Of a stretch of 43,581 nucleotides of DNA, positions 7,263-26,699 are shown one piece after another. Below the pieces are notes generated by a model. The model worked only from the letters and a program-made list of their open reading frames with translations, did not search any database and was not told the DNA's origin. The first letter of the stretch is position 1, and the number at the start of each line of letters is the position of its first letter. The DNA lies in NCBI GenBank assembly GCA_000739535.1, contig DF820465.1:203342-246922 (forward strand). Direction: 5' to 3'. The stretch is from Candidatus Vecturithrix granuli. Lineage in GTDB: Bacteria; Moduliflexota; Moduliflexia; Moduliflexales; Moduliflexaceae. The position numbers were made by a program, and so were the translations under genes.

Positions 7263-8450
7263 ATGGACATCAACACCATCACACTTTGCGGAGGAGGGAA
7301 CGCTGCTCACGCCTTAATTCCAATTATTCGCACGCACTTTCAGGGAACCATCTCCCTTTTCCTGCCTTATAAAGATGAAGCCGAACATTTTCAATTTCTG
7401 ATCAGGGAAGATCAACACATCAAAGCTTATACGCCAAAGGGAGTATTAAACGCGAGACCGGACAGGGTGAGTAAATCGGCAGCAGAGGCCTGTCAGGATG
7501 CTGATCTGGTCATCATCTCTTTACCTGCCTTTGCACATGAATTCACCCTGTCGCAAATACTCCCTTTTTTAAAACCGAACGCGCTGGTCGGAACGATGCC
7601 GGCCCGCAGTGGTTTCGAATATTCGGCGTTACGACTGTTACAAGATCATCAGCGGGAAGCAATAGGCATTTTTGGCTTTCAAACTCTTCCCTGGGCCTGC
7701 CGTATCACCCACTATGCCCGTGAAGTTGACATTTTGGGACAGAAAGCCTCGGTAGGCTTAGCGGCTTTTCCTCACAGCATAAGCGAAGAACTCGCAGACG
7801 ACTTCACCCGGTTTCTTGGGCTGACAATCACCCCGCTTCCCAATATGCTGACCCTTTCATTAGCCAATGTGGGGCAGCTTATCCACCCCGGTATTATGTA
7901 TGGCCTCTTTAAGGGACAGGAAGACTGCAAATATCGCAAAGAGGATATTCCGTATTTTTATCAGGGGGTCACGCAAGAAACCGCCCGAACTTTAGAACAT
8001 CTCAGTGCTGAGGTGCGGAACGTCACGCAAGCCCTGCAAACACGCAATCCGGTACTGGATTTGTCGCAGGTGATCAGCCTCAAAGAATGGCTGCTCACGA
8101 CGTATTCCGATTCCATCGCAGATTCCAGTTCCTTGCAGAGCTGCTTTGTGACCAATCGAGCGTATCAGGGGCTTCGCGCGCCGATGAAAGAGATTGAGGA
8201 CGGATATTTTCTCCCGGATTTTCAAGCTCGCTATCTGACGGAAGACATTCCTTACGGTCTGGTCGTGACCAGAGCGATTGCGCAGCTTGCCGGGGTGCAA
8301 ACGCCTGCGATTGATGAAGTGATTACCACAACCAGCCGCTGGATGCACAAAAGTTATCTGGAGCGTGGAGAGTTGTGCGGCAAAGATATTCAAGACACTC
8401 GCATACCACAGAAATACGGCATTCAGGATGTCAAGGACATTATGTTTTAG
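7263..8450 (+). CDS. NAD/NADP octopine/nopaline dehydrogenase family protein
   Basis: A 395-residue oxidoreductase with an N-terminal Rossmann fold whose dinucleotide loop is CGGGNAAHA (residues 9-17). It continues with ADLVIISLPAFAH and GTMPARSGFEY, and has the all-helical C-terminal octopine dehydrogenase domain, marked by LSLANVGQLIHPGIMYG (conserved His-Pro) and YLTEDIPYGLV. Members reduce the imine of an amino acid and a 2-oxo acid to an opine, or run the reverse oxidation. The length is normal. An AGAGG ribosome site precedes ATG 7263. The B12 fusion gene follows 90 bases later on the same strand with a palindromic repeat between them. Family certain, substrate unknown; a link to the B12 protein is inference. 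Confidence 0.88.
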   Translation: MDINTITLCGGGNAAHALIPIIRTHFQGTISLFLPYKDEAEHFQFLIREDQHIKAYTPKGVLNARPDRVSKSAAEACQDADLVIISLPAFAHEFTLSQILPFLKPNALVGTMPARSGFEYSALRLLQDHQREAIGIFGFQTLPWACRITHYAREVDILGQKASVGLAAFPHSISEELADDFTRFLGLTITPLPNMLTLSLANVGQLIHPGIMYGLFKGQEDCKYRKEDIPYFYQGVTQETARTLEHLSAEVRNVTQALQTRNPVLDLSQVISLKEWLLTTYSDSIADSSSLQSCFVTNRAYQGLRAPMKEIEDGYFLPDFQARYLTEDIPYGLVVTRAIAQLAGVQTPAIDEVITTTSRWMHKSYLERGELCGKDIQDTRIPQKYGIQDVKDIMF

Positions 8451-8457
8451 ATGTACC

Positions 8458-8512
8458 GCGAAATTCCTTTTCGCGGCGCCATGGCAGGCGTAGGCGCGAA
8501 AAGGAATTTCGC
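8458..8512. repeat. 18-bp perfect inverted repeat between opine dehydrogenase-like and B12 genes
   Basis: GCGAAATTCCTTTTCGCG (8458-8475) is the exact complement of 8495-8512, around a 19-base GC-rich centre. It lies inside the open frame upstream of ATG 8541, which is one reason not to extend that gene to 8451. It could act as a processing or attenuation hairpin within the transcript. Confidence 0.75.
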
Positions 8513-8540
8513 ACTACATTTTCAAAGGAGGGATAAAGCT

Positions 8541-11500
8541 ATGAGTACATCTGCAATCAAAAAAAGGGTGTTAAACTGCTCGCTGGAACCCTGCGTACAC
8601 ACCTTAGGGGTTGAGCGGTTTGCGGAATGGATGGAGAGCAAAGGTATTGGATATGTCTGCATTAAGTTAGGGCCGGCGGTTTCGATTGATGAATTGATTG
8701 ACAAAGTGCGGGAATCTCACCCGGAAGTAGTCGCGTTTTCGTATCGGTTGGGCGATCTGCACGTGGATGAGATTGTGCTCGAACTCGTTGAAAAAGTCTA
8801 TCAATATGGACTTGAACCGCAGAAAAGCGGCATCCGCTATTGTTTCGGCGGGGTACGCCTGGCCGCCAATCTGGTACGAGCGATGACCGGCGTCCCCATT
8901 TTGGCCGATAAATTCTCTCCAGTCGAGGATCGTCATTTCGATCTGGAACAGATTGCGGCAACCTACAAAGATCACAAACAATTGCAGGGATTTTTCGAAC
9001 TGATCGTTGATGATTATGTCACGATGGAAGAATTGGAAGAGTTTGCCATGAAAGCGACGCAGGCTGCCGAAAAGCAGATAACCTGGTCAGATGACATGGT
9101 TGAACGGATTCGGCAAGTACGCGAAATCGAGCACCGTCCCATTATTCGCGCCCATATTGGCACCGCGGCTGAAACGATTGACCCGACCGTGGAAGGGACC
9201 GAACTAATCAGCGACGCTGGCGCGCTGGAAATCGTCTCTCTTGCGCCCGATCAAGCCTGTCAGGCGTTTTTAGCGAAGTTTGTGCGCGGCGAGGAAGATC
9301 CGAGCAAATATCGTAAAGGCGAAGGTGGTGCGCCGATTCGCAGCAAAGAAGATCTCCGTCGTCTCAAAAAGGCGACCCAACGGGGAAATTTCCCGATGAT
9401 TCGCATTTATTCCGGCACTGACGAATTAGTGGAATTAGCGAAAATTTTTGAAGAAACGCTGCACATGCCCTTTCCGGCCGTCCCGATCTTTTTTTATAAT
9501 CGCTTAGACGGACGCGGCCCCTTATCCATTTTAGACGGACTGAATGAACATTTTGCCACGATGCGCTGGTGGGCTTCCATCAATAAACCACTCGAAGTCA
9601 ATGACCCGCATCAATGGCAATTACGCCGTTGCTCCGATGATATGTATGTCACCGACCATGTGCTCGCCGGAGTGGTTGCGCTGAAAATGGGCATCAAACA
9701 CTATGTCATGCAATTGATGTTCGACCTGCCGCCGGAGATCAGTCCGTTCTATGATCTGGCCAAGATGAAAGCGGCTTACGAACTCATTTACCCGCTTACG
9801 CAGCACTTTGATTTCTCGATTATCAAAGAAACCAGAGGAGGGCTGTCCAGTTTCCCGCCCAATCTGGACAAGGCCAAAAGCCACCTGGCCATCACGACCT
9901 ATTGGCAGATGTACATGGAGCCGGATATTGTCCACATCGTTAGTTATTGTGAAGCCCATCACGACGCCAAAGCTGAGGATATTATCGCGAGCTGCGATAT
10001 TGCCAAACAGAGTTTTGAAGAATACGATCGCGCCGCGATGACGGATCTCTGGAAAAATCCTGAGGTGCTTGCACGAAAAGAAGAACTGAAAAAAGGCGCG
10101 ATGTATAATATCTTGCACCTGGCGTTAATGGGCGGATATGAAGGCAAAGTGACCTTAGAGAACTTTGCCGAATATGCTGTCAGCCCGGAAATTGCCGCCC
10201 GACGAGAAAACCTGGCGGATCGAGGGAAAAATTATGAAACCATGCTGTTAGATGTGATTGATGGGCGCAATTATCTTTCGCAAGATTGTAATATGATCAG
10301 CGCGGATAACCTTGATTTAGCGTTACAAACAGGACTATTCCAGGCGCCGCAGGTCACGGTGATTGATAAGCGCTATGAACTGACCGGGGCCTGTAAGACT
10401 GAAATTGTGAACGGCACCTGCCGGATTGCCGAATTTTGCGGGCAAAAAGTGCATAATGAGTTTGAGCGCGTGGACCTGATCAGGCAGAAATTCCCCTGGT
10501 ACTTCTATAAAGATGTGACCCAGGCCGACGAACAGTCGCACCTGATCGAAGTCGAAGATAAAATCGAGGAGTCTGTTGTGCAGGCATTCCGAGCCGAACT
10601 TGGCATGACCGCGTTCGAAAATAAAAAGGTGCTCGCCGTGGATTTTGGGAGCACTTATACCAAAGTGGCAATATTTAACACAAGTTCGGATGAGGTAGAT
10701 TTGCGTTATGTGCCCACGACCGTGGATGACATCCGTGAAGGTCTGGCCAATGGATTGGGCTGCCTGGAGGAATGCCGGCGACAGGGCAATTGGGATCCCC
10801 TGCGAGACGCGATGGATCAATTTGACACCAAACTGCCGTGTAGCAGCGCGAAAGGCGGCTTGAAAATGGTCACGATTGCTTCGACGGCCAGAGAAAGCGG
10901 CTTTGCCGCTGATTTAGCCGCTCTAACCGCTGGCGCAAAATTGCTGAACAGTTATAATGGCAAAATTTCAGCGGAAGAGGCAAAACAGATTTATCTCGAA
11001 GACTGTCCGGAGATTATTCTGTTGAGCGGAGGCGTCAACGACGGCGGCGATTCTACCGCGGTGTTCCACAACGCCCGGCTGCTGGCCGAAACCGCGCACC
11101 TGGCGACCTATGCCAAATACGGAATTCCGATTATTTACTCCGGCAATGAAGATGTCACAGACGAGGTGTTAGACATTTTCCATCGCCGTCAGATTGACGC
11201 GCGGGCCACCAAAAATATTATGCCCGAGGTCAATAAATTCAATATTGAAGTGGTCAATGAAGCCATTCGAGAATTATTCCAGACCGTCGTCATTCGAGGC
11301 AAGGGTTTTGATGTGGTCGAAGAATATATGAGCGCCAAATTTATTCCCACTCCCCGCGCCGCGTTTTTGGGAATTAATCTCTTAGCCCGCGGCTATGGCA
11401 GCGAAGAAGGCTTAGGCAATATCGTAGCTCTGGATATTGGCGGCTGTACCACAGACTTCTTTGCCAATGTGCGTGCGAATCCCTTGTATCTCTATCCCTG

Positions 11501-12194
11501 GGATGATCCCAAGAAAAAGGTCAAACGCACCATTCTGAAGACCCCGAACTACCCCTTAGCCTATCGCCGGGTTGAGGGGAAATATGGCCTGGCCTATAAT
11601 GCGGAAAATCTCATGGAACTCGAAAAATTCAAAAGCGGGCGTATGAGTGCGGAAATCAATGAGCTCTTTAATCAACAATTTCCGCATTTCGAGGTCAATG
11701 GCGATCATTTTGACCAGTTCCTCAAGCGCATAGACGGACGGTGGACGATTTCGCTGCCGGAGTATCTCGCCTGGATTCATCAAAACCCGCATGTCATGCC
11801 CAACACGGAAGAAGAGAATTTCGTGCGAAGTCTCCTGGCCAGGGAAACCTTAGCCGTCGCCACCGCAAATAATGTCGGGCATGTCAAAGAAACCGACGTG
11901 TATTTCTTGCAGGAAGGGGTAAATTTCTTTACCCAGGACACGACGCTGGTGTTAGTGGGCGGCACGATTTACCATAAGTGCAAAGAGAACAAAGAGTATT
12001 TGTGGGAAAATATCAAAACCATTGCCCGGGGCGCGTTATTCGATCCAGAAGAGTATACTGTCTTACGCCCGAATCACCAAATTTTGCTCGATGCGTCTTA
12101 TATTCTTTCCACCGTCGGAGGGCTGTATGGGCGGCTAGATCCGGAACGCGCCCTCCGGATTTTAAAGAAAAACCTGAAACCGTTGGAGATTTGA
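8541..12194 (+). CDS. Fused B12-binding-like, mutase-barrel-like and GlmL/MutL reactivase protein
   Basis: A 1217-residue protein in three parts. Residues 1-135: a flavodoxin-like cobalamin-binding-type domain with C18-V-H20-T-L-G23, equal to the DxHxxG cobalamin motif except for Cys in place of Asp. About 195-690: a barrel-like region, with YSGTDEL, PIFFYNRLDGRGPLS, INKPLEVNDPHQW and RRCSDDMYVTDHVLAG, reminiscent of the glutamate mutase epsilon subunit. About 695-1217: an ASKHA ATPase of the GlmL/MutL type, with phosphate loop D701-F-G-S-T-Y-T-K708, ILLSGGVNDGGD and D965-I-G-G-C-T-T-D972. GlmL is thought to reactivate B12 mutases, and elsewhere these are separate genes. ATG 8541 follows AAAGGAGGGATAAAGCT. 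The reactivase call is strong, the B12 domain good, and the barrel substrate unknown. Confidence 0.82.
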   Translation: MSTSAIKKRVLNCSLEPCVHTLGVERFAEWMESKGIGYVCIKLGPAVSIDELIDKVRESHPEVVAFSYRLGDLHVDEIVLELVEKVYQYGLEPQKSGIRYCFGGVRLAANLVRAMTGVPILADKFSPVEDRHFDLEQIAATYKDHKQLQGFFELIVDDYVTMEELEEFAMKATQAAEKQITWSDDMVERIRQVREIEHRPIIRAHIGTAAETIDPTVEGTELISDAGALEIVSLAPDQACQAFLAKFVRGEEDPSKYRKGEGGAPIRSKEDLRRLKKATQRGNFPMIRIYSGTDELVELAKIFEETLHMPFPAVPIFFYNRLDGRGPLSILDGLNEHFATMRWWASINKPLEVNDPHQWQLRRCSDDMYVTDHVLAGVVALKMGIKHYVMQLMFDLPPEISPFYDLAKMKAAYELIYPLTQHFDFSIIKETRGGLSSFPPNLDKAKSHLAITTYWQMYMEPDIVHIVSYCEAHHDAKAEDIIASCDIAKQSFEEYDRAAMTDLWKNPEVLARKEELKKGAMYNILHLALMGGYEGKVTLENFAEYAVSPEIAARRENLADRGKNYETMLLDVIDGRNYLSQDCNMISADNLDLALQTGLFQAPQVTVIDKRYELTGACKTEIVNGTCRIAEFCGQKVHNEFERVDLIRQKFPWYFYKDVTQADEQSHLIEVEDKIEESVVQAFRAELGMTAFENKKVLAVDFGSTYTKVAIFNTSSDEVDLRYVPTTVDDIREGLANGLGCLEECRRQGNWDPLRDAMDQFDTKLPCSSAKGGLKMVTIASTARESGFAADLAALTAGAKLLNSYNGKISAEEAKQIYLEDCPEIILLSGGVNDGGDSTAVFHNARLLAETAHLATYAKYGIPIIYSGNEDVTDEVLDIFHRRQIDARATKNIMPEVNKFNIEVVNEAIRELFQTVVIRGKGFDVVEEYMSAKFIPTPRAAFLGINLLARGYGSEEGLGNIVALDIGGCTTDFFANVRANPLYLYPWDDPKKKVKRTILKTPNYPLAYRRVEGKYGLAYNAENLMELEKFKSGRMSAEINELFNQQFPHFEVNGDHFDQFLKRIDGRWTISLPEYLAWIHQNPHVMPNTEEENFVRSLLARETLAVATANNVGHVKETDVYFLQEGVNFFTQDTTLVLVGGTIYHKCKENKEYLWENIKTIARGALFDPEEYTVLRPNHQILLDASYILSTVGGLYGRLDPERALRILKKNLKPLEI

Positions 12195-12458: not shown

Positions 12459-13478
12459 ATGAAAAAACTATGGAAAATGAGCTTTGCGATGATGATGGCA
12501 TTGTGTGTTATGTTCGGGGCAGCCGGCAGAGAAGCTGCGTCCGAAACCGTGTATTTAAATATGGGGAGCACCTCGTCCACATCAGGGGTGTATGCCTGGT
12601 GTGTGGCAACGGCTTCAGTTATCAACAAGGCCAATGCTGACATCAATGTCACAGTGGTTGAGAGTGGGGCCGCGTTGGATAATCTCCGGCGCACAAAAGA
12701 AGGCGCGTTTGATTTTTCCCTGTGCGTGGATTCTGCATCAGCGATGCAGATGTATCGAGGAACGGATACTTTTAAAGACGAAGGCTGGGACAAGGTCAGA
12801 TGGTTATTTCTGCGGAATGCGATTGTGAATAGACTGTATGTGAAAGCTGATTCGGGCTTGAAGACCTTTGGCGATTTGTCTGGCAAAAAATTCAGCCCCG
12901 GCATTCCGGGCGCATCTTCGACCGCCTCATTTATGAAATTCAATGATCTATTAGGGACAGGGATCGACGTGATGCCCGCCTCACTCGCGGATGCCATTAG
13001 CGCGTTTCAACAAGGGAAAATTGTTGGCTTGCAAAAATCAAGCCCCTTAAAATCGTTGGATGCCTCGCTAATCGAAGTGAACCTTACGACGCCGCTGTCG
13101 GTTGTCGGTTATAGTCAGGAGGATATCAAAAAAATCCGCGAGCAGCTTCCTTATATCATTTTCTTTGAAACCCCGGCCGGAGGGATCGAACAGCTTCCTG
13201 AGCTTGGCGCGGTGATGGAAGAGGCGCAAGTTGTGGGCGCGATCGCCTCTTCGGAGCTGCCCGAAGAAGTTGGGTATAAAATTGTCAAAGCCTATGTTGA
13301 AGACCTTGAAACCGTTGCCGCAGCTTATGCTCCGGTCAAAGGATGGGATCCGATCGGAGATTCCTTCAAATTAATCTCAGAGGGCGGCGAAATTCCTATT
13401 CACGCCGGACTGTATAAATACTGCGTGGAAAAAGGTATCGAGGTGCCGGAACGCTTCATTCCGCCGGAAGCGAAGTAA
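12459..13478 (+). CDS. TAXI family TRAP transporter solute-binding protein
   Basis: A 339-residue secreted protein. Residues 1-27 form a Sec signal (MKKLWK, hydrophobic core, small residues before ETVYL). The mature protein begins VYLNMGSTSSTSGVYAW, the hallmark glycine/serine start of the TAXI group (TRAP-associated extracytoplasmic immunogenic protein). It also carries ALDNLRRTKEGAFDFSLC, LKTFGDLSGKKFSPGIPGAS and DAISAFQQGKIVG, the typical ligand-pocket order. TAXI proteins bind small carboxylates or amino acids in the periplasm and deliver them to the TRAP permease. A GGGAGGG ribosome site precedes ATG 12459. The permease is the next gene, 89 bases on, with a hairpin between. The ligand is unknown. 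Confidence 0.92.
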   Translation: MKKLWKMSFAMMMALCVMFGAAGREAASETVYLNMGSTSSTSGVYAWCVATASVINKANADINVTVVESGAALDNLRRTKEGAFDFSLCVDSASAMQMYRGTDTFKDEGWDKVRWLFLRNAIVNRLYVKADSGLKTFGDLSGKKFSPGIPGASSTASFMKFNDLLGTGIDVMPASLADAISAFQQGKIVGLQKSSPLKSLDASLIEVNLTTPLSVVGYSQEDIKKIREQLPYIIFFETPAGGIEQLPELGAVMEEAQVVGAIASSELPEEVGYKIVKAYVEDLETVAAAYAPVKGWDPIGDSFKLISEGGEIPIHAGLYKYCVEKGIEVPERFIPPEAK

Positions 13479-13567: not shown

Positions 13568-15475
13568 ATGGCTATTCAAATAGAGAAGAAAGCATTCATA
13601 AAAAGATCGAATGTATTATTCTGGGGAGGTTTGGGATTTGCTGTTTGTCAGTTAGTCCTGCCCGTGTTCTTTTCGCTGATTGATATACAAATGCGAGCCA
13701 TTCATATTATTTTAGGCATCTCCCTCGCCTCCTTAGCCTGTCCTTACAAAAAGAAAGGCCAGGAAGAACCGACCACGATTTCTGTATGGGACCTGGTGAT
13801 CATTCTGATCCTGATTGTCGCCAATGTGAACACCTTTTTAAAAGCCATGCAAATCTATATGACCCCTGGCAGTGGGTCAACAGTTGATTTAATCATTGGC
13901 GTGGCGTTAATTATCGTTATCCTTGATGCGGCTCGAAGAACAGTCGGGTGGGCTATTCCGATCTTTGTAGGGTTGATGTTCGCGTATATCTGGGCTGGCC
14001 CCCTGATGCCCGGGATGTGGAAACTGCGGGGGCTGCCCTGGAAATATGTGTTGAATTCTGTCTATTTTTCGCCTCTAGGAATTTATGGCAGTATTACCGG
14101 CATGTCAGCGACCTTTATCGGCATGTTTATTATTTTTGGCGCGCTGATTGCCGCGGCCGGGGGAGGAAAGACCTTTATAGATTTTGCCATTGCCTTAACG
14201 GGTCGGTATATTGGTGGTCCCGCGAAAGCGGCCGTGGTGTCCAGTGCACTCTTTGGGAGTATTTCAGGGAGCGGGGTGGCAAATGTTATGGTCACGGGAA
14301 CCTATACAATTCCTCTGATGAAACGCTTAGGTTATGATCCCAATTTCGCCGGGGGGGTCGAAGCGATTGCTTCGACCGGAGGCGGCATCACTCCACCGAT
14401 TATGAGCGTGACGGCCTTTATGATGGCTGAGTTTCTGCAAATCTCGTATTTTAAAATTATCGGCTATGCCCTGATCCCATGCTGCCTATATTATGTTGGA
14501 ATCTTTACTGGAGTTCACCTTGAAACCATTCGAAGCGGACTCGCTGCGGTGCCCGATGAAGAAATTCCCTCCTGGAAAGAGATTCTGACCTTCAAACGTC
14601 TGGCCTCGCTTGTGATCCCAACCGGAATTTTGTTATATTTCATTGCTACAGGTACATCGCTGTTGTACGCCGGATTTTACGCTTGTGTCGCCGTGATTGT
14701 CGTGTTCTTCGCGTCTCATTTCTCGATATCCGGCATGAAAATGGTAATCATAGAGATCGGCAAAGGCTTGAGCGAGGGCGGGTTAGGCTTAGCCCATATT
14801 GTGCCGATTCTGGTGGCGGTCAACATCCTGGTGAACATGATTGGTGTCACGGGGATCGCCCCGAAACTTGGGGGATTGATTATGGACATCGGCGGAGAAA
14901 ATTTGATCCTGGCCCTGTTTATCGCCACGATTATTCCGTTTCTGTTTGGCACCTCTCTGCCGGTTGTCCCGACCTATGTTCTGTCGCTTTCGATTATTGC
15001 ACCCTCATTAGTACACTTAGGCATTGATGAAGTCGCCATTCATCTGTTTTTCATTTACTGGTCTATTTTGGGCGGGGTGACGCCGCCAACCTGTACTTCC
15101 GCCATCGCCGCCGCTGCCATTGCTAAAAGCGACTGGTTCAAAACCGCGATCATCTCAGTCAAGTTGGGTATTGTGGCCTTTGTGATCCCCTATTTTTTCG
15201 TGCTGAATCCCGCGCTTGTGGGTCGAAGCAGTTTCATGAACATTGCCGAATATGGTCTCAGTGCTTTAGTAGGTACGTTGCTGCTGGCTTATGGATTCTT
15301 TGCGGATATAAAAAGCAAGTTGAATTTGATCCTCAGAACATTGTTTGTTGTGAGCGGGCTGCTGCTGATGTGTCCGAGTCATACATTATCAGTAATCGGC
15401 ATTCTGACGGCGGTTCTCACCTTTCTCGTGCAACGGTTTAGCGAAAAAACAGCAGTGGCGAAGACATCCGGCTAA
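13568..15475 (+). CDS. Fused TRAP transporter permease (4TM/12TM, TAXI type)
   Basis: A 635-residue polytopic inner-membrane protein. The N-terminal part (about residues 1-130) has four membrane segments and corresponds to the small DctQ-like subunit. The remainder is the large DctM-like channel, with the repeats AAAGGGKTFIDFAIALTGRYIGGPAK, shown here in part as GGGKTFIDFAIAL, SGSGVANVMVTGTYTIPLMK in part as GSGVANVMVTG, and ASTGGGITPPIMSVTAF. In the second half are IDIGGENL-like MDIGGENLILALF and GGVTPPTCTSAIAAAAIA. Such fused permeases are typical partners of TAXI binding proteins and use an ion gradient for uptake. AAGAGGAGAGCAGC precedes ATG 13568. Directly upstream is the cognate binding protein. 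Confidence 0.92.
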   Translation: MAIQIEKKAFIKRSNVLFWGGLGFAVCQLVLPVFFSLIDIQMRAIHIILGISLASLACPYKKKGQEEPTTISVWDLVIILILIVANVNTFLKAMQIYMTPGSGSTVDLIIGVALIIVILDAARRTVGWAIPIFVGLMFAYIWAGPLMPGMWKLRGLPWKYVLNSVYFSPLGIYGSITGMSATFIGMFIIFGALIAAAGGGKTFIDFAIALTGRYIGGPAKAAVVSSALFGSISGSGVANVMVTGTYTIPLMKRLGYDPNFAGGVEAIASTGGGITPPIMSVTAFMMAEFLQISYFKIIGYALIPCCLYYVGIFTGVHLETIRSGLAAVPDEEIPSWKEILTFKRLASLVIPTGILLYFIATGTSLLYAGFYACVAVIVVFFASHFSISGMKMVIIEIGKGLSEGGLGLAHIVPILVAVNILVNMIGVTGIAPKLGGLIMDIGGENLILALFIATIIPFLFGTSLPVVPTYVLSLSIIAPSLVHLGIDEVAIHLFFIYWSILGGVTPPTCTSAIAAAAIAKSDWFKTAIISVKLGIVAFVIPYFFVLNPALVGRSSFMNIAEYGLSALVGTLLLAYGFFADIKSKLNLILRTLFVVSGLLLMCPSHTLSVIGILTAVLTFLVQRFSEKTAVAKTSG

Positions 15476-23836: not shown

Positions 23837-25231
23837 CTAGTTTGTAATGGATTTTTCCAGGATATTCCGAATCACGGACGCGGCTTTTTCCGGGACAAAG
23901 GGTTTTTTGATAAAGATTTTCACGCCGAGTTTAAACACTTCTTCCCGGACTTCTTGCACATCAATCCCGCTAATCACGATAATATTGACGTGGGGATCCA
24001 TCTGGCGGATTTGTTGAATGGCATCTACTCCGCTCAACCCTGGCATGGATAAATCCATCGTCATAAAATTGGGGCGCAATCTGGCAAACATATCAATCGC
24101 TTCCTGACCGGTGGTCGCTTCTCCGAGCGATTCAGCCTGCAAAATTTCCAGAGTTCGATTCAAAAAATTCCGCACGACCACGGAATCATCAGCCATTAAA
24201 AACCGTAAGCGCGAGAGATCGCCTTCGAAACTCACATTATCTTTATAATAAATCCCTTCTTTTTCAAAAAAGCCGACATCTTTTTTTGTGCCTTTTTCTA
24301 ACAGCACCAGCGCCGGATCTACCTCTCGCAAGAGATCTGTTCGATATAATTGATTTTCTGAAAACTTCAATGCCACGCGCCCATTTTCATAAAGAAAATC
24401 TCGAAAACTCAAGACCCCGATGCGAAAGAGAGAATCCATGATCATGGAATAAGTATTTTTCCTCATGATCGACTGCATGTCCTCAGGACTGCGCTGGAAA
24501 AACTCTGACAGAAGAGCTGCAGCTTCTTCAAAATAGAGCTCGAGCATAAGGGTAGCCTTTTGCAGTACTTTGAGAATCATGATTAATTTTTCAGGTTCAC
24601 GATCAATCGTTTCATCAGGCGCGATCAAGCAGCTTTGATTGATAAGCCAATTCACATTCCCTTCAATGTGCGGGATTTCGGAACGAGTTCCTGAAAAGAA
24701 AAATTCTCCGCCATAGTGTTGAGCTTCAGTGGTCCAGGGTTCCCAACAGGCGATGGCATCGAGTTTTTTCTCGCGGAAGGCGGCTAATTGATCTGAGGGG
24801 AGCAAATTGATAAAATAGACCTGATCTAAATCGACATGACAGTCTTTGGCCATGTTGGTGAGCGCAATAAAGACCGCCGCGCCTTTAGCTATACCGATCC
24901 GCTTTCCTTCTAAATCCTGCGGCGTATGAATGCCGCTGGCGCGATGAATCACCACCTGTTGCGTTCCGGCAATATCAGCCAGAGGCGCCAGGATTTTCGT
25001 ACTCACTCCCTTATCGTGCAAAAGAATGGAAGTAATAGGCGTTTGGGTAAAGGCGAAGGGTTTCTGTTCTGCGTGAAGGACATCTTGCGGCATAGTCGTC
25101 CCGGATTCAGCAAAGCGACACACGACATCGAGTCCGGCCTCTTTTGCGAAGAGATCGAGTTTGATAGCCAACGCAAGTTGGGCTGAAATATTTGGATCGT
25201 TGACGCCCCATATTTCAAGTTTTTTAGACAT
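23837..25231 (-). CDS. NMT1/SsuA-like substrate-binding domain fused to a response-regulator receiver
   Basis: A 464-residue protein with an ABC-transporter type substrate-binding domain (about residues 1-300) and a CheY-like receiver (about 340-460). The binding part has the nitrate/sulfonate/thiamine-precursor (SsuA/NMT1) pattern: SGTTMPQDVLHAEQKPFAF, HTPQDLEGKRIGIAKGAA, and LDAIACWEPWTTEA. It has no signal peptide or lipobox, so it should be cytoplasmic. The receiver has D348-D349, phospho-acceptor D393 in MDLSMPG, S421 in VISG and K443 in KKPF, a complete site. No kinase gene adjoins it. A known SBP is a periplasmic protein, so the domain pairing is odd. Probably a one-protein ligand sensor feeding a phosphorelay; output unknown. 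Confidence 0.85.
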   Translation of the reverse strand: MSKKLEIWGVNDPNISAQLALAIKLDLFAKEAGLDVVCRFAESGTTMPQDVLHAEQKPFAFTQTPITSILLHDKGVSTKILAPLADIAGTQQVVIHRASGIHTPQDLEGKRIGIAKGAAVFIALTNMAKDCHVDLDQVYFINLLPSDQLAAFREKKLDAIACWEPWTTEAQHYGGEFFFSGTRSEIPHIEGNVNWLINQSCLIAPDETIDREPEKLIMILKVLQKATLMLELYFEEAAALLSEFFQRSPEDMQSIMRKNTYSMIMDSLFRIGVLSFRDFLYENGRVALKFSENQLYRTDLLREVDPALVLLEKGTKKDVGFFEKEGIYYKDNVSFEGDLSRLRFLMADDSVVVRNFLNRTLEILQAESLGEATTGQEAIDMFARLRPNFMTMDLSMPGLSGVDAIQQIRQMDPHVNIIVISGIDVQEVREEVFKLGVKIFIKKPFVPEKAASVIRNILEKSITN

Positions 25232-25383: not shown

Positions 25384-26490
25384 TCAATCATACGCGGTCG
25401 ATCGGAATTGATCCTGCAAGTGCGCCTGAATTTCCTGGAGATGTCGTTGATTCGTTCGCTGTTGCGAAAGCGGCGGAAGGTTATCAAAAGCAAAAAAGCC
25501 GACATCCAGGGTTTCATGACTGGTTCGCGCTTCACCTCCCGTAATCTCGCACAAAAAAATCAACTTATAGGCATGATAGAAGGAAAGCGGCGTCCCTGCC
25601 CGGTTACAATCAAATACCGCCAGCAGTTTGTGCACGACAACCTGAAACCCGCTTTCTTCCCAGACTTCACGCACCGCCACTTCTGACGGAAAATCCCCAA
25701 CATCCGCCCATCCGCCTGGCATACTCCAACGTTGATCCGAACGTTCCTGAATTAATAAGATTTTCCCATCGCGGATAACCGCGCCGCGTACATCCACTTT
25801 AGGCGTGGCATAGCCCGGCTGCAGCGCAAAATTTTCAAGAATCTGTTCCGTCTTCAACCGCGTATGCTGCTCAACAATTTCTGCGGCGATTTCTCCTAAA
25901 CGTTGATAGCGTTCTCGATCATATTCAGACAGACAATAGGTCAATCCGGTTTGACTCAGTGCTTGAATTTCTCTGGCCCAGACAAGCCAGGGAGGAATAT
26001 TTTTTAATATACGAGCCTGCTCAGAAAGCTCTAATTCCATATAGACAGCTCCTTCCAGAGGATTATGATAATACGGGGGAATTTCTCGAAATCCAAAAGA
26101 GGCATATAACTGCCGAGCCGCTATCATCGAGGCTAATGTATCTAAACGTAAACACGAATATCCCGCTATTCGAGCTTTTTCAATCACGCATTCTAACAAC
26201 TGTCTGGCAAGTCCCTGACGGCGACAGGCGGGCACCACATACATCCGTTTGACCTCGCCAATGCCCTGGTCAATTTTACGTAGAGCGATACATCCGGCAG
26301 GTTTTCCCTCAGAATAGGCCAATAGCAGCAAACCATCCGGCCGAGTATATACACCGGGTAAGGTTGCTAATTCTTGCTCAAATCCTTGAAAACTCAGGTC
26401 AACACTCAACCAGTTTGCATATTCACGAAACAGATTTCGAATGTGATCAATATCTTGTGCGCTATGGACTTCTTGAATAGTATATGTCAT
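25384..26490 (-). CDS. GNAT acetyltransferase fused to a NUDIX hydrolase
   Basis: A 368-residue bifunctional protein. Residues 1-155 form a GNAT domain with the acetyl-CoA loop R90-R91-Q92-G93-L94-A95 and the C-terminal strand ASFGFREIPPYYHNPLEGAVYMEL. Residues about 160-220 resemble the NUDIX N-terminal helical extension (PPWLVWAREIQALSQTGLTY). Residues 230-360 form the NUDIX fold with the box G260 to F282: the catalytic R274-E275-x-x-E278-E279 is intact and the first Glu of the consensus is Asp266. The NUDIX part resembles ADP-ribose pyrophosphatase-like enzymes with this N-terminal piece. ATG 26490 has a GGAGGAGGGG ribosome site. The two activities may act on one class of substrate, but this is open. 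Confidence 0.9.
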   Translation of the reverse strand: MTYTIQEVHSAQDIDHIRNLFREYANWLSVDLSFQGFEQELATLPGVYTRPDGLLLLAYSEGKPAGCIALRKIDQGIGEVKRMYVVPACRRQGLARQLLECVIEKARIAGYSCLRLDTLASMIAARQLYASFGFREIPPYYHNPLEGAVYMELELSEQARILKNIPPWLVWAREIQALSQTGLTYCLSEYDRERYQRLGEIAAEIVEQHTRLKTEQILENFALQPGYATPKVDVRGAVIRDGKILLIQERSDQRWSMPGGWADVGDFPSEVAVREVWEESGFQVVVHKLLAVFDCNRAGTPLSFYHAYKLIFLCEITGGEARTSHETLDVGFFAFDNLPPLSQQRTNQRHLQEIQAHLQDQFRSTAYD

Positions 26491-26699
26491 TTTTTTAACC
26501 CCTCCTCCCATAGACATTCTTCACGATCCCCTCGAATTGTAAAGAAATAATCTCTTATAAAGAAAAAAAACCTCCTCAAAACAAAAAAGTATTTACAAAA
26601 CTCCAGGGATAAAATAATGTTCTATTTTAAGGAAAAGGACATGCTGAGGAAATCTTTCTGATCCTCCATGCTAACCATATCAGCCCTAAAGGAACGAAT

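Follow-up and report, generated by a model that had tools for sequence, protein, structure and literature searches.

Glutamate mutase distributes a B12-binding Rossmann domain, a catalytic barrel and an ASKHA ATPase of the MutL family over three separate genes, GlmS, GlmE and GlmL. Counterparts of all three are joined in a single polypeptide, encoded in a different operon, in Candidatus Vecturithrix granuli. The gene lies in a stretch of 43,581 nucleotides (assembly GCA_000739535.1, contig DF820465.1, positions 203,342 to 246,922), hereafter called the window, and runs on its + strand from an ATG start through 1217 codons without a stop. The encoded fusion protein is conserved and unusual, and we consider it likely to be an adenosylcobalamin (AdoCbl) radical mutase of the glutamate-mutase type with a built-in ATPase for the maintenance of its cofactor.

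IcmF, an isobutyryl-CoA mutase with a covalently attached G-protein chaperone (PMC10481361), is a precedent in principle for a B12 mutase with a tethered chaperone. Like the fusion protein, IcmF combines an AdoCbl mutase and a nucleoside triphosphate-driven cofactor chaperone in one chain and carries its B12 domain at the N-terminus. However, its chaperone is a P-loop G-protein of the MeaB type placed between the B12 domain and the barrel, not an ASKHA ATPase, and its barrel belongs to the acyl-CoA class, which matches the fusion barrel with a Z of about 19 as against 28 for GlmE. No MeaB-type domain was found by Pfam in the fusion protein. IcmF shows that a covalent B12 chaperone is workable with a G-protein. 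The initial annotation, made from the sequence alone, could name no characterized enzyme of this form. Literature searches, with thin coverage of subscription journals, found no description of the fusion, and no characterized homologue spanning its full length turned up; the joining of a chaperone to a B12 mutase, by contrast, has a precedent. The surprise is moderated by the existence of IcmF.

Two further systems invite comparison. The ornithine 4,5-aminomutase operon (OraS/OraE/Or-4/Orr/Ord) shares the AdoCbl mutase fold, a MutL relative (Or-4), a dehydrogenase that acts next in the pathway and a racemase, but its enzyme depends on pyridoxal phosphate (PLP), whereas the fusion lacks an invariant PLP lysine and its MutL does not group with Or-4. 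The second is a dehydrogenase/B12-protein pair (Hore_09740/Hore_09750) noted in Halothermothrix orenii in 2009 with no function given (PMC2626281). Proteins of this stand-alone type are homologous to the fusion in the B12 domain and barrel (mostly 31–38% identity), and an octopine-dehydrogenase-family gene is adjacent, as it is to the fusion. They often occur with genes for a Ddl-like ATP-grasp and an ornithine-racemase-like protein, whereas the fusion lies in an operon with transporter genes of its own and stands apart from them in the tree as a long-branched clade.

Domain architecture of the fusion protein

The gene and its parts are as follows, with residue numbers counted from the ATG at 8541.

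8541–12194, + strand: fusion gene, B12 domain, GlmE-type TIM barrel and MutL/GlmL ASKHA ATPase, 1217 aa
8562–9020, + strand: B12-binding Rossmann domain, residues 8–160 (family-wide PF02310 match, profile matches, conserved His and Gly)
9081–10478, + strand: TIM barrel with C-terminal extension, residues 181–646 (AlphaFold2 model, structure match, invariant residues)
10479–10625, + strand: linker, residues 647–695 (low conservation, partly low model confidence)
10629–12176, + strand: MutL/GlmL ASKHA ATPase domain, residues 697–1212 (PF13941, alignment with GlmL and Or-4, AlphaFold2 model, tree)

The order of the three parts in one chain of 1217 residues, as first proposed, is upheld by the profiles, the AlphaFold2 model and the open frame. 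MutL and the B12-binding domain are the only credible Pfam matches in the window protein. The ATPase matches PF13941 with an E-value of 3.3e-84 over the whole model (1–450 of 450) at residues 697–1212, and both phosphate loops, DFGSTYTK (701–708) and DIGGCTTD (965–972), are kept at the positions given in the initial annotation. That annotation had called the domain a GlmL-type reactivase. Membership of the MutL family stands, but the domain does not reach the cut-offs of the GlmL equivalog NF040745 (273 bits against 475) or of the GlmL family model TIGR01319 (190 bits against 204). These scores make the domain a relative of GlmL but not a GlmL proper. In the MutL tree it falls with the GlmL of glutamate mutases and away from Or-4 (support 98/93), on a long branch that calls for care; this grouping is consistent with a glutamate-mutase-type barrel.

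The two halves, residues 1–690 and the MutL domain, were modelled apart by AlphaFold2, and the models give no relative placement. The model of the MutL domain, from whose alignment four rows from plasmid records were left out, has a predicted local distance difference test score (pLDDT) of 82, and the linker has low pLDDT at 659–676. The neighbours of the MutL-domain model in the PDB are ASKHA folds: acetone carboxylase, a hydantoinase-type enzyme, FGGY kinases and Hsp70. The first two rank ahead of the chaperones. This would fit a rival role, in which the domain is no reactivase but has a catalytic or regulatory part in activating the substrate, like the similarly folded ATPases of acetone carboxylase and the ATP-dependent hydantoinases; a D-glutamate cyclase-like neighbouring gene could likewise point to lactam or D-glutamate chemistry. 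We regard this as unlikely. The sequence family is unambiguously MutL, nearest to the GlmL of glutamate mutase operons, and MutL serves precisely the class of enzyme to which the domain is attached here. Moreover, no sequence relative of MutL turned up in the PDB, so that the order of the nearest folds says little.

For the N-terminal domain, homology to B12-binding domains is clear at the profile level. PF02310 was matched in all 74 aligned family members, on which the family conservation figures given here rest. The family profile matches solved corrinoid proteins (4jgi, E 8e-10), and also GlmS, the B12 domain of ornithine aminomutase (OraE) and MetH. The motif C18-x-H20-x-x-G23 is present, with a GG at 103–104; H20 and G23 are invariant across the 74 sequences, and His20 is the predicted lower cobalt ligand.

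The barrel is the part whose assignment is weakest by sequence, and it was settled by structure. A Foldseek comparison of the model of residues 1–690 (pLDDT 88.9) with the PDB ranks glutamate mutase E first (E 4e-13), and VIA-align also places glutamate mutase E (1cb7_B) at the top, with Z 28.1 over 380 residues and a root-mean-square deviation of 3.2. Ornithine and lysine aminomutases come next, followed by methylmalonyl-CoA mutases. In addition, 38 of the 74 family members match methylaspartate mutase E (PF06368) colinearly, for example 245–522 against model positions 109–378, and barrel residues R203, D323, R325, E352, R362, D366, D405, R432, H465 and E471 are invariant. The middle region is thus a barrel of the AdoCbl-mutase superfamily, as the initial annotation had anticipated, and does not fall to a non-B12 family.

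This result also bears on a different reading, in which the protein is a corrinoid methyl-transfer protein whose barrel binds a methyl donor and whose MutL domain is an activation partner. The B12 profile does match corrinoid methyltransferase proteins and methionine synthase well, and the 2009 description of a stand-alone relative mentions a distant similarity to methionine synthase (PMC2626281). Yet B12 Rossmann domains are common to mutases and methyltransferases, and the barrel model scores higher against AdoCbl mutases (Z 19–28) than against dihydropteroate-synthase-type barrels (Z about 17). In genomes with a stand-alone mutase, MutL genes were found at other loci, and in each of the nine neighbourhoods where a partner was identified, that partner was GlmSE or OraSE. 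A methyl-transfer function is, in our opinion, quite unlikely. PLP aminomutases can be set aside, because no lysine occurs among the 36 invariant columns of the 74 relatives; no PLP domain was found either, and such an identity does not fit the sequence.

Is the protein then an ordinary glutamate mutase, converting glutamate to 3-methylaspartate, whose three genes have merged? In favour are the fold, which is closest to glutamate mutase E, and the ATPase, whose nearest relative is GlmL. TAXI-TRAP transporters, one of which is encoded in the operon, often carry glutamate-like acids. However, the barrel is too divergent for the Met_asp_mut_E model, and the operon holds no methylaspartate ammonia-lyase. 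Octopine-type dehydrogenases accompany the nearest non-fused relatives, whose identity is about 35%. The substrate-binding arginine claw of glutamate mutase consists of R66, R100 and R149 (PMC10947579); these positions align with H205, Q241 and Y290, at a very weak hhalign score and in a low-confidence alignment, so that the arginines are not evidently kept. The hhalign comparison of the barrel with GlmE is weak throughout, probably because of the small GlmE set. An ordinary glutamate mutase therefore seems very unlikely, and we do not give the protein that name.

Conservation of the fusion and its stand-alone relatives

The same three-part protein is present in the source genome (G000) and in 8 of 50 Atribacterota genomes. 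An assembly chimera or a frameshift is thereby ruled out as its origin. Five of the Atribacterota copies are complete (1219–1228 aa) and 78–80% identical to the window protein end to end; the other three are incomplete, apparently cut by contig ends. With eight further genomes encoding it beside equivalent transporter and dehydrogenase genes, the bacterial protein looks like a real, self-maintaining enzyme. The assembly has an estimated contamination of 10.75%, but a contaminant contig is disfavoured: the neighbouring Mrp gene is closer to that of a genome of the same family, G001 (64% identity), than to Atribacterota (about 51–57%), and the contig consequently looks native.

Across the six complete copies, 830 of 1217 positions are identical, and the least conserved block of 50 residues (651–700, 58%) coincides with the linker. 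Comparison of the window with G443 gave proportions of nonsynonymous change (pN) of 0.12–0.13 and of synonymous change (pS) of 0.86–0.92 in both halves, synonymous change being near saturation, and the ratio of the corresponding rates (dN/dS) between G440 and G431 is about 0.04–0.05. Judged from these values, with pN low in each half, purifying selection keeps both the mutase and the ATPase. In each fusion genome that yielded a MutL, namely G000, G386 and six more, there is no copy other than the fused one, and a genome-wide search detected no GlmE (PF06368) in any of them. The fused ATPase consequently has no other known client. A cobalamin adenosyltransferase is encoded in G000 and in five of the seven Atribacterota fusion genomes tested.

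All fusions form one clade in the mutase tree, on a long branch outside the clade of Atribacterota stand-alone proteins. About 20 other Atribacterota genomes have the stand-alone form, and no fusion genome showed both. The fusion cassette is absent from the three relatives compared, and the mutase and MutL trees disagree on the place of the window copy within the fusion clade. Horizontal exchange of the cassette is the more likely history, the direction of transfer not being fixed by the trees.

A scan of one genome per species yielded 504 candidate relatives, and the 80 best of them were retained. The stand-alone members come from Bacillota, Chloroflexota, Thermotogota, Asgard archaea, Thermoplasmatota and others, and are mostly about 550 residues long. 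No MutL domain was present in the 92 complete members examined, nor was a MutL encoded beside the stand-alone mutases in the flanks examined (up to 8 kb). An octopine-dehydrogenase-family gene adjoins the mutase in 71 of 82 clustered loci.

In several phyla a D-Ala-D-Ala-ligase-like ATP-grasp and an ornithine-racemase-like gene also lie near the stand-alone mutase. These two genes, the mutase and the octopine-type dehydrogenase recur together in loci L030, L064, L080, L093 and others (locus and genome labels are ours), in Asgard archaea, Armatimonadota, Neomarinimicrobiota and Anaerolineales. The content of this set suggests a pathway, not described so far, in which a D-amino acid takes part. 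Two stand-alone relatives have long frames, L048 8001–10253 (751 aa) and L118 1207–3126 (640 aa, very divergent), and are possible further extensions of the family.

Start codon and operon

The other features around the fusion gene are the following.

7263–8450, + strand: octopine/nopaline-dehydrogenase-family NAD(P) oxidoreductase, 395 aa, first gene of the operon (PF02317, E 1.5e-38)
8458–8474 / 8496–8512, no strand: perfect inverted repeat of 17 bp in the gap between the dehydrogenase and fusion genes (sequence)
8524–8532, + strand: Shine-Dalgarno sequence AAAGGAGGG serving the ATG at 8541 (sequence)
12459–13478, + strand: TAXI-type TRAP solute-binding protein (TIGR02122, E 4.6e-29)
13568–15475, + strand: fused TRAP permease (TIGR02123, E 3.4e-151)

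The longest mechanical open reading frame, 8451–12194, extends 30 codons beyond the ATG at 8541. The latter, already chosen in the initial annotation, is likely to be the real start, because AAAGGAGGG precedes it by 8 nt and the extra 30 codons fall on the inverted repeat. Related translated copies of the 8458–8512 repeat occur on other contigs of the same genome, and it is probably a dispersed genomic element outside the enzyme.

The four genes of the window operon, dehydrogenase, fusion, TAXI binding protein and TRAP permease, are all on the + strand. In the complete Atribacterota operons the order is dehydrogenase, fusion, TRAP permease and TAXI, with identities of 54–61% (dehydrogenase, directly upstream of every complete Atribacterota fusion gene), 78–80% (fusion), 70–75% (TRAP permease) and 66–75% (TAXI). 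No Rfam match to a cobalamin riboswitch was found in the window or the operons. The presence of a TAXI-TRAP transporter points to a small organic acid or an amino acid as the compound taken up. A D-glutamate cyclase-like gene and a second TAXI-TRAP set flank the operon in G447 and G431, and in locus L027 the upstream genes include an amidohydrolase (PF07969 family), an M20 fragment and an M81 peptidase; we read the amidohydrolase as of the D-aminoacylase type. These genes, and the ornithine-racemase-like gene found by several stand-alone mutases, are tentative hints of a D-amino-acid substrate.

Downstream of the TAXI gene, the Atribacterota fusion operons carry a conserved, apparently secreted protein of about 131 aa with no Pfam match (L165 4678–5076, L167 8740–9132, L168 14432–14851), not seen in the window operon. 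Elsewhere in the window, on the − strand, a single frame at 23837–25231 unusually pairs an NMT1/THI5-like solute-binding domain with a following response-regulator receiver domain, and 25384–26517 encodes a GNAT acetyltransferase fused to a Nudix_N/NUDIX hydrolase.

Candidate mechanism and significance

The substrate of the fusion mutase is probably an amino acid, its exact identity being speculative. The more specific reading that we somewhat favour is a hitherto undescribed AdoCbl mutase acting on a new, perhaps D-configured amino acid in an anaerobic uptake and degradation pathway, with the ASKHA reactivase as a permanent domain that exchanges the damaged cofactor in cis. On this reading, the protein would be to ASKHA ATPases what IcmF is to G-proteins, and would belong to a broad enzyme family found in bacteria and archaea. 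The architecture, the intact motifs, the fold, the conservation, the operon and the single MutL of the genome are observed, whereas AdoCbl use and ATPase-driven exchange in cis are inferred. The N-terminal Rossmann domain would position AdoCbl above the opening of the barrel, His20 serving as the lower ligand, and substrate binding in the barrel would trigger Co–C homolysis followed by radical rearrangement. After loss of the adenosyl group, ATP binding and hydrolysis by the tethered ASKHA domain would pry the B12 domain from the barrel. Dead cobalamin would then leave and fresh AdoCbl from the adenosyltransferase would enter, with no separate MutL being recruited. The substrate, supplied by the TAXI-TRAP transporter, would probably be a small amino acid and perhaps one of D configuration or derived from D-glutamate, and the octopine-dehydrogenase-like enzyme would act before or after the rearrangement.

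Several observations weigh against the explanation as a radical mutase with its own ATPase. The barrel region of the window protein had no sequence match in family-model searches, the Met_asp_mut_E and MthylAspMut_E models giving none at E up to 10 or 0.1. Its PF02310 match taken alone is weak (E 3e-4, below cut-off), and the Asp of the canonical DxHxxG is replaced by Cys18. Of the profile matches foreseen in the initial annotation, MutL thus came out strongly, whereas the B12-binding and methylaspartate mutase E matches emerged among the relatives. The role of MutL as a reactivase is itself argued mostly by analogy with diol dehydratase reactivase (PMC4682846, citing Mori and Toraya 1999). 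Of the 29 genomes with a stand-alone mutase that were searched, 14 have no MutL at all; as these relatives live without it, the ATPase is an addition and not a catalytic necessity. Finally, the D-amino-acid idea is based on few neighbouring genes.

The fusion draws attention to a mutase family, for which no known reaction was found, with hundreds of candidate members in bacteria and Asgard archaea encoded beside an octopine-type dehydrogenase. The action of ASKHA reactivases on B12 mutases is hard to study, since the partners are separate proteins. A covalent 1:1 pair would allow the exchange mechanism to be approached by structure and kinetics, as IcmF has done for the G-protein class.

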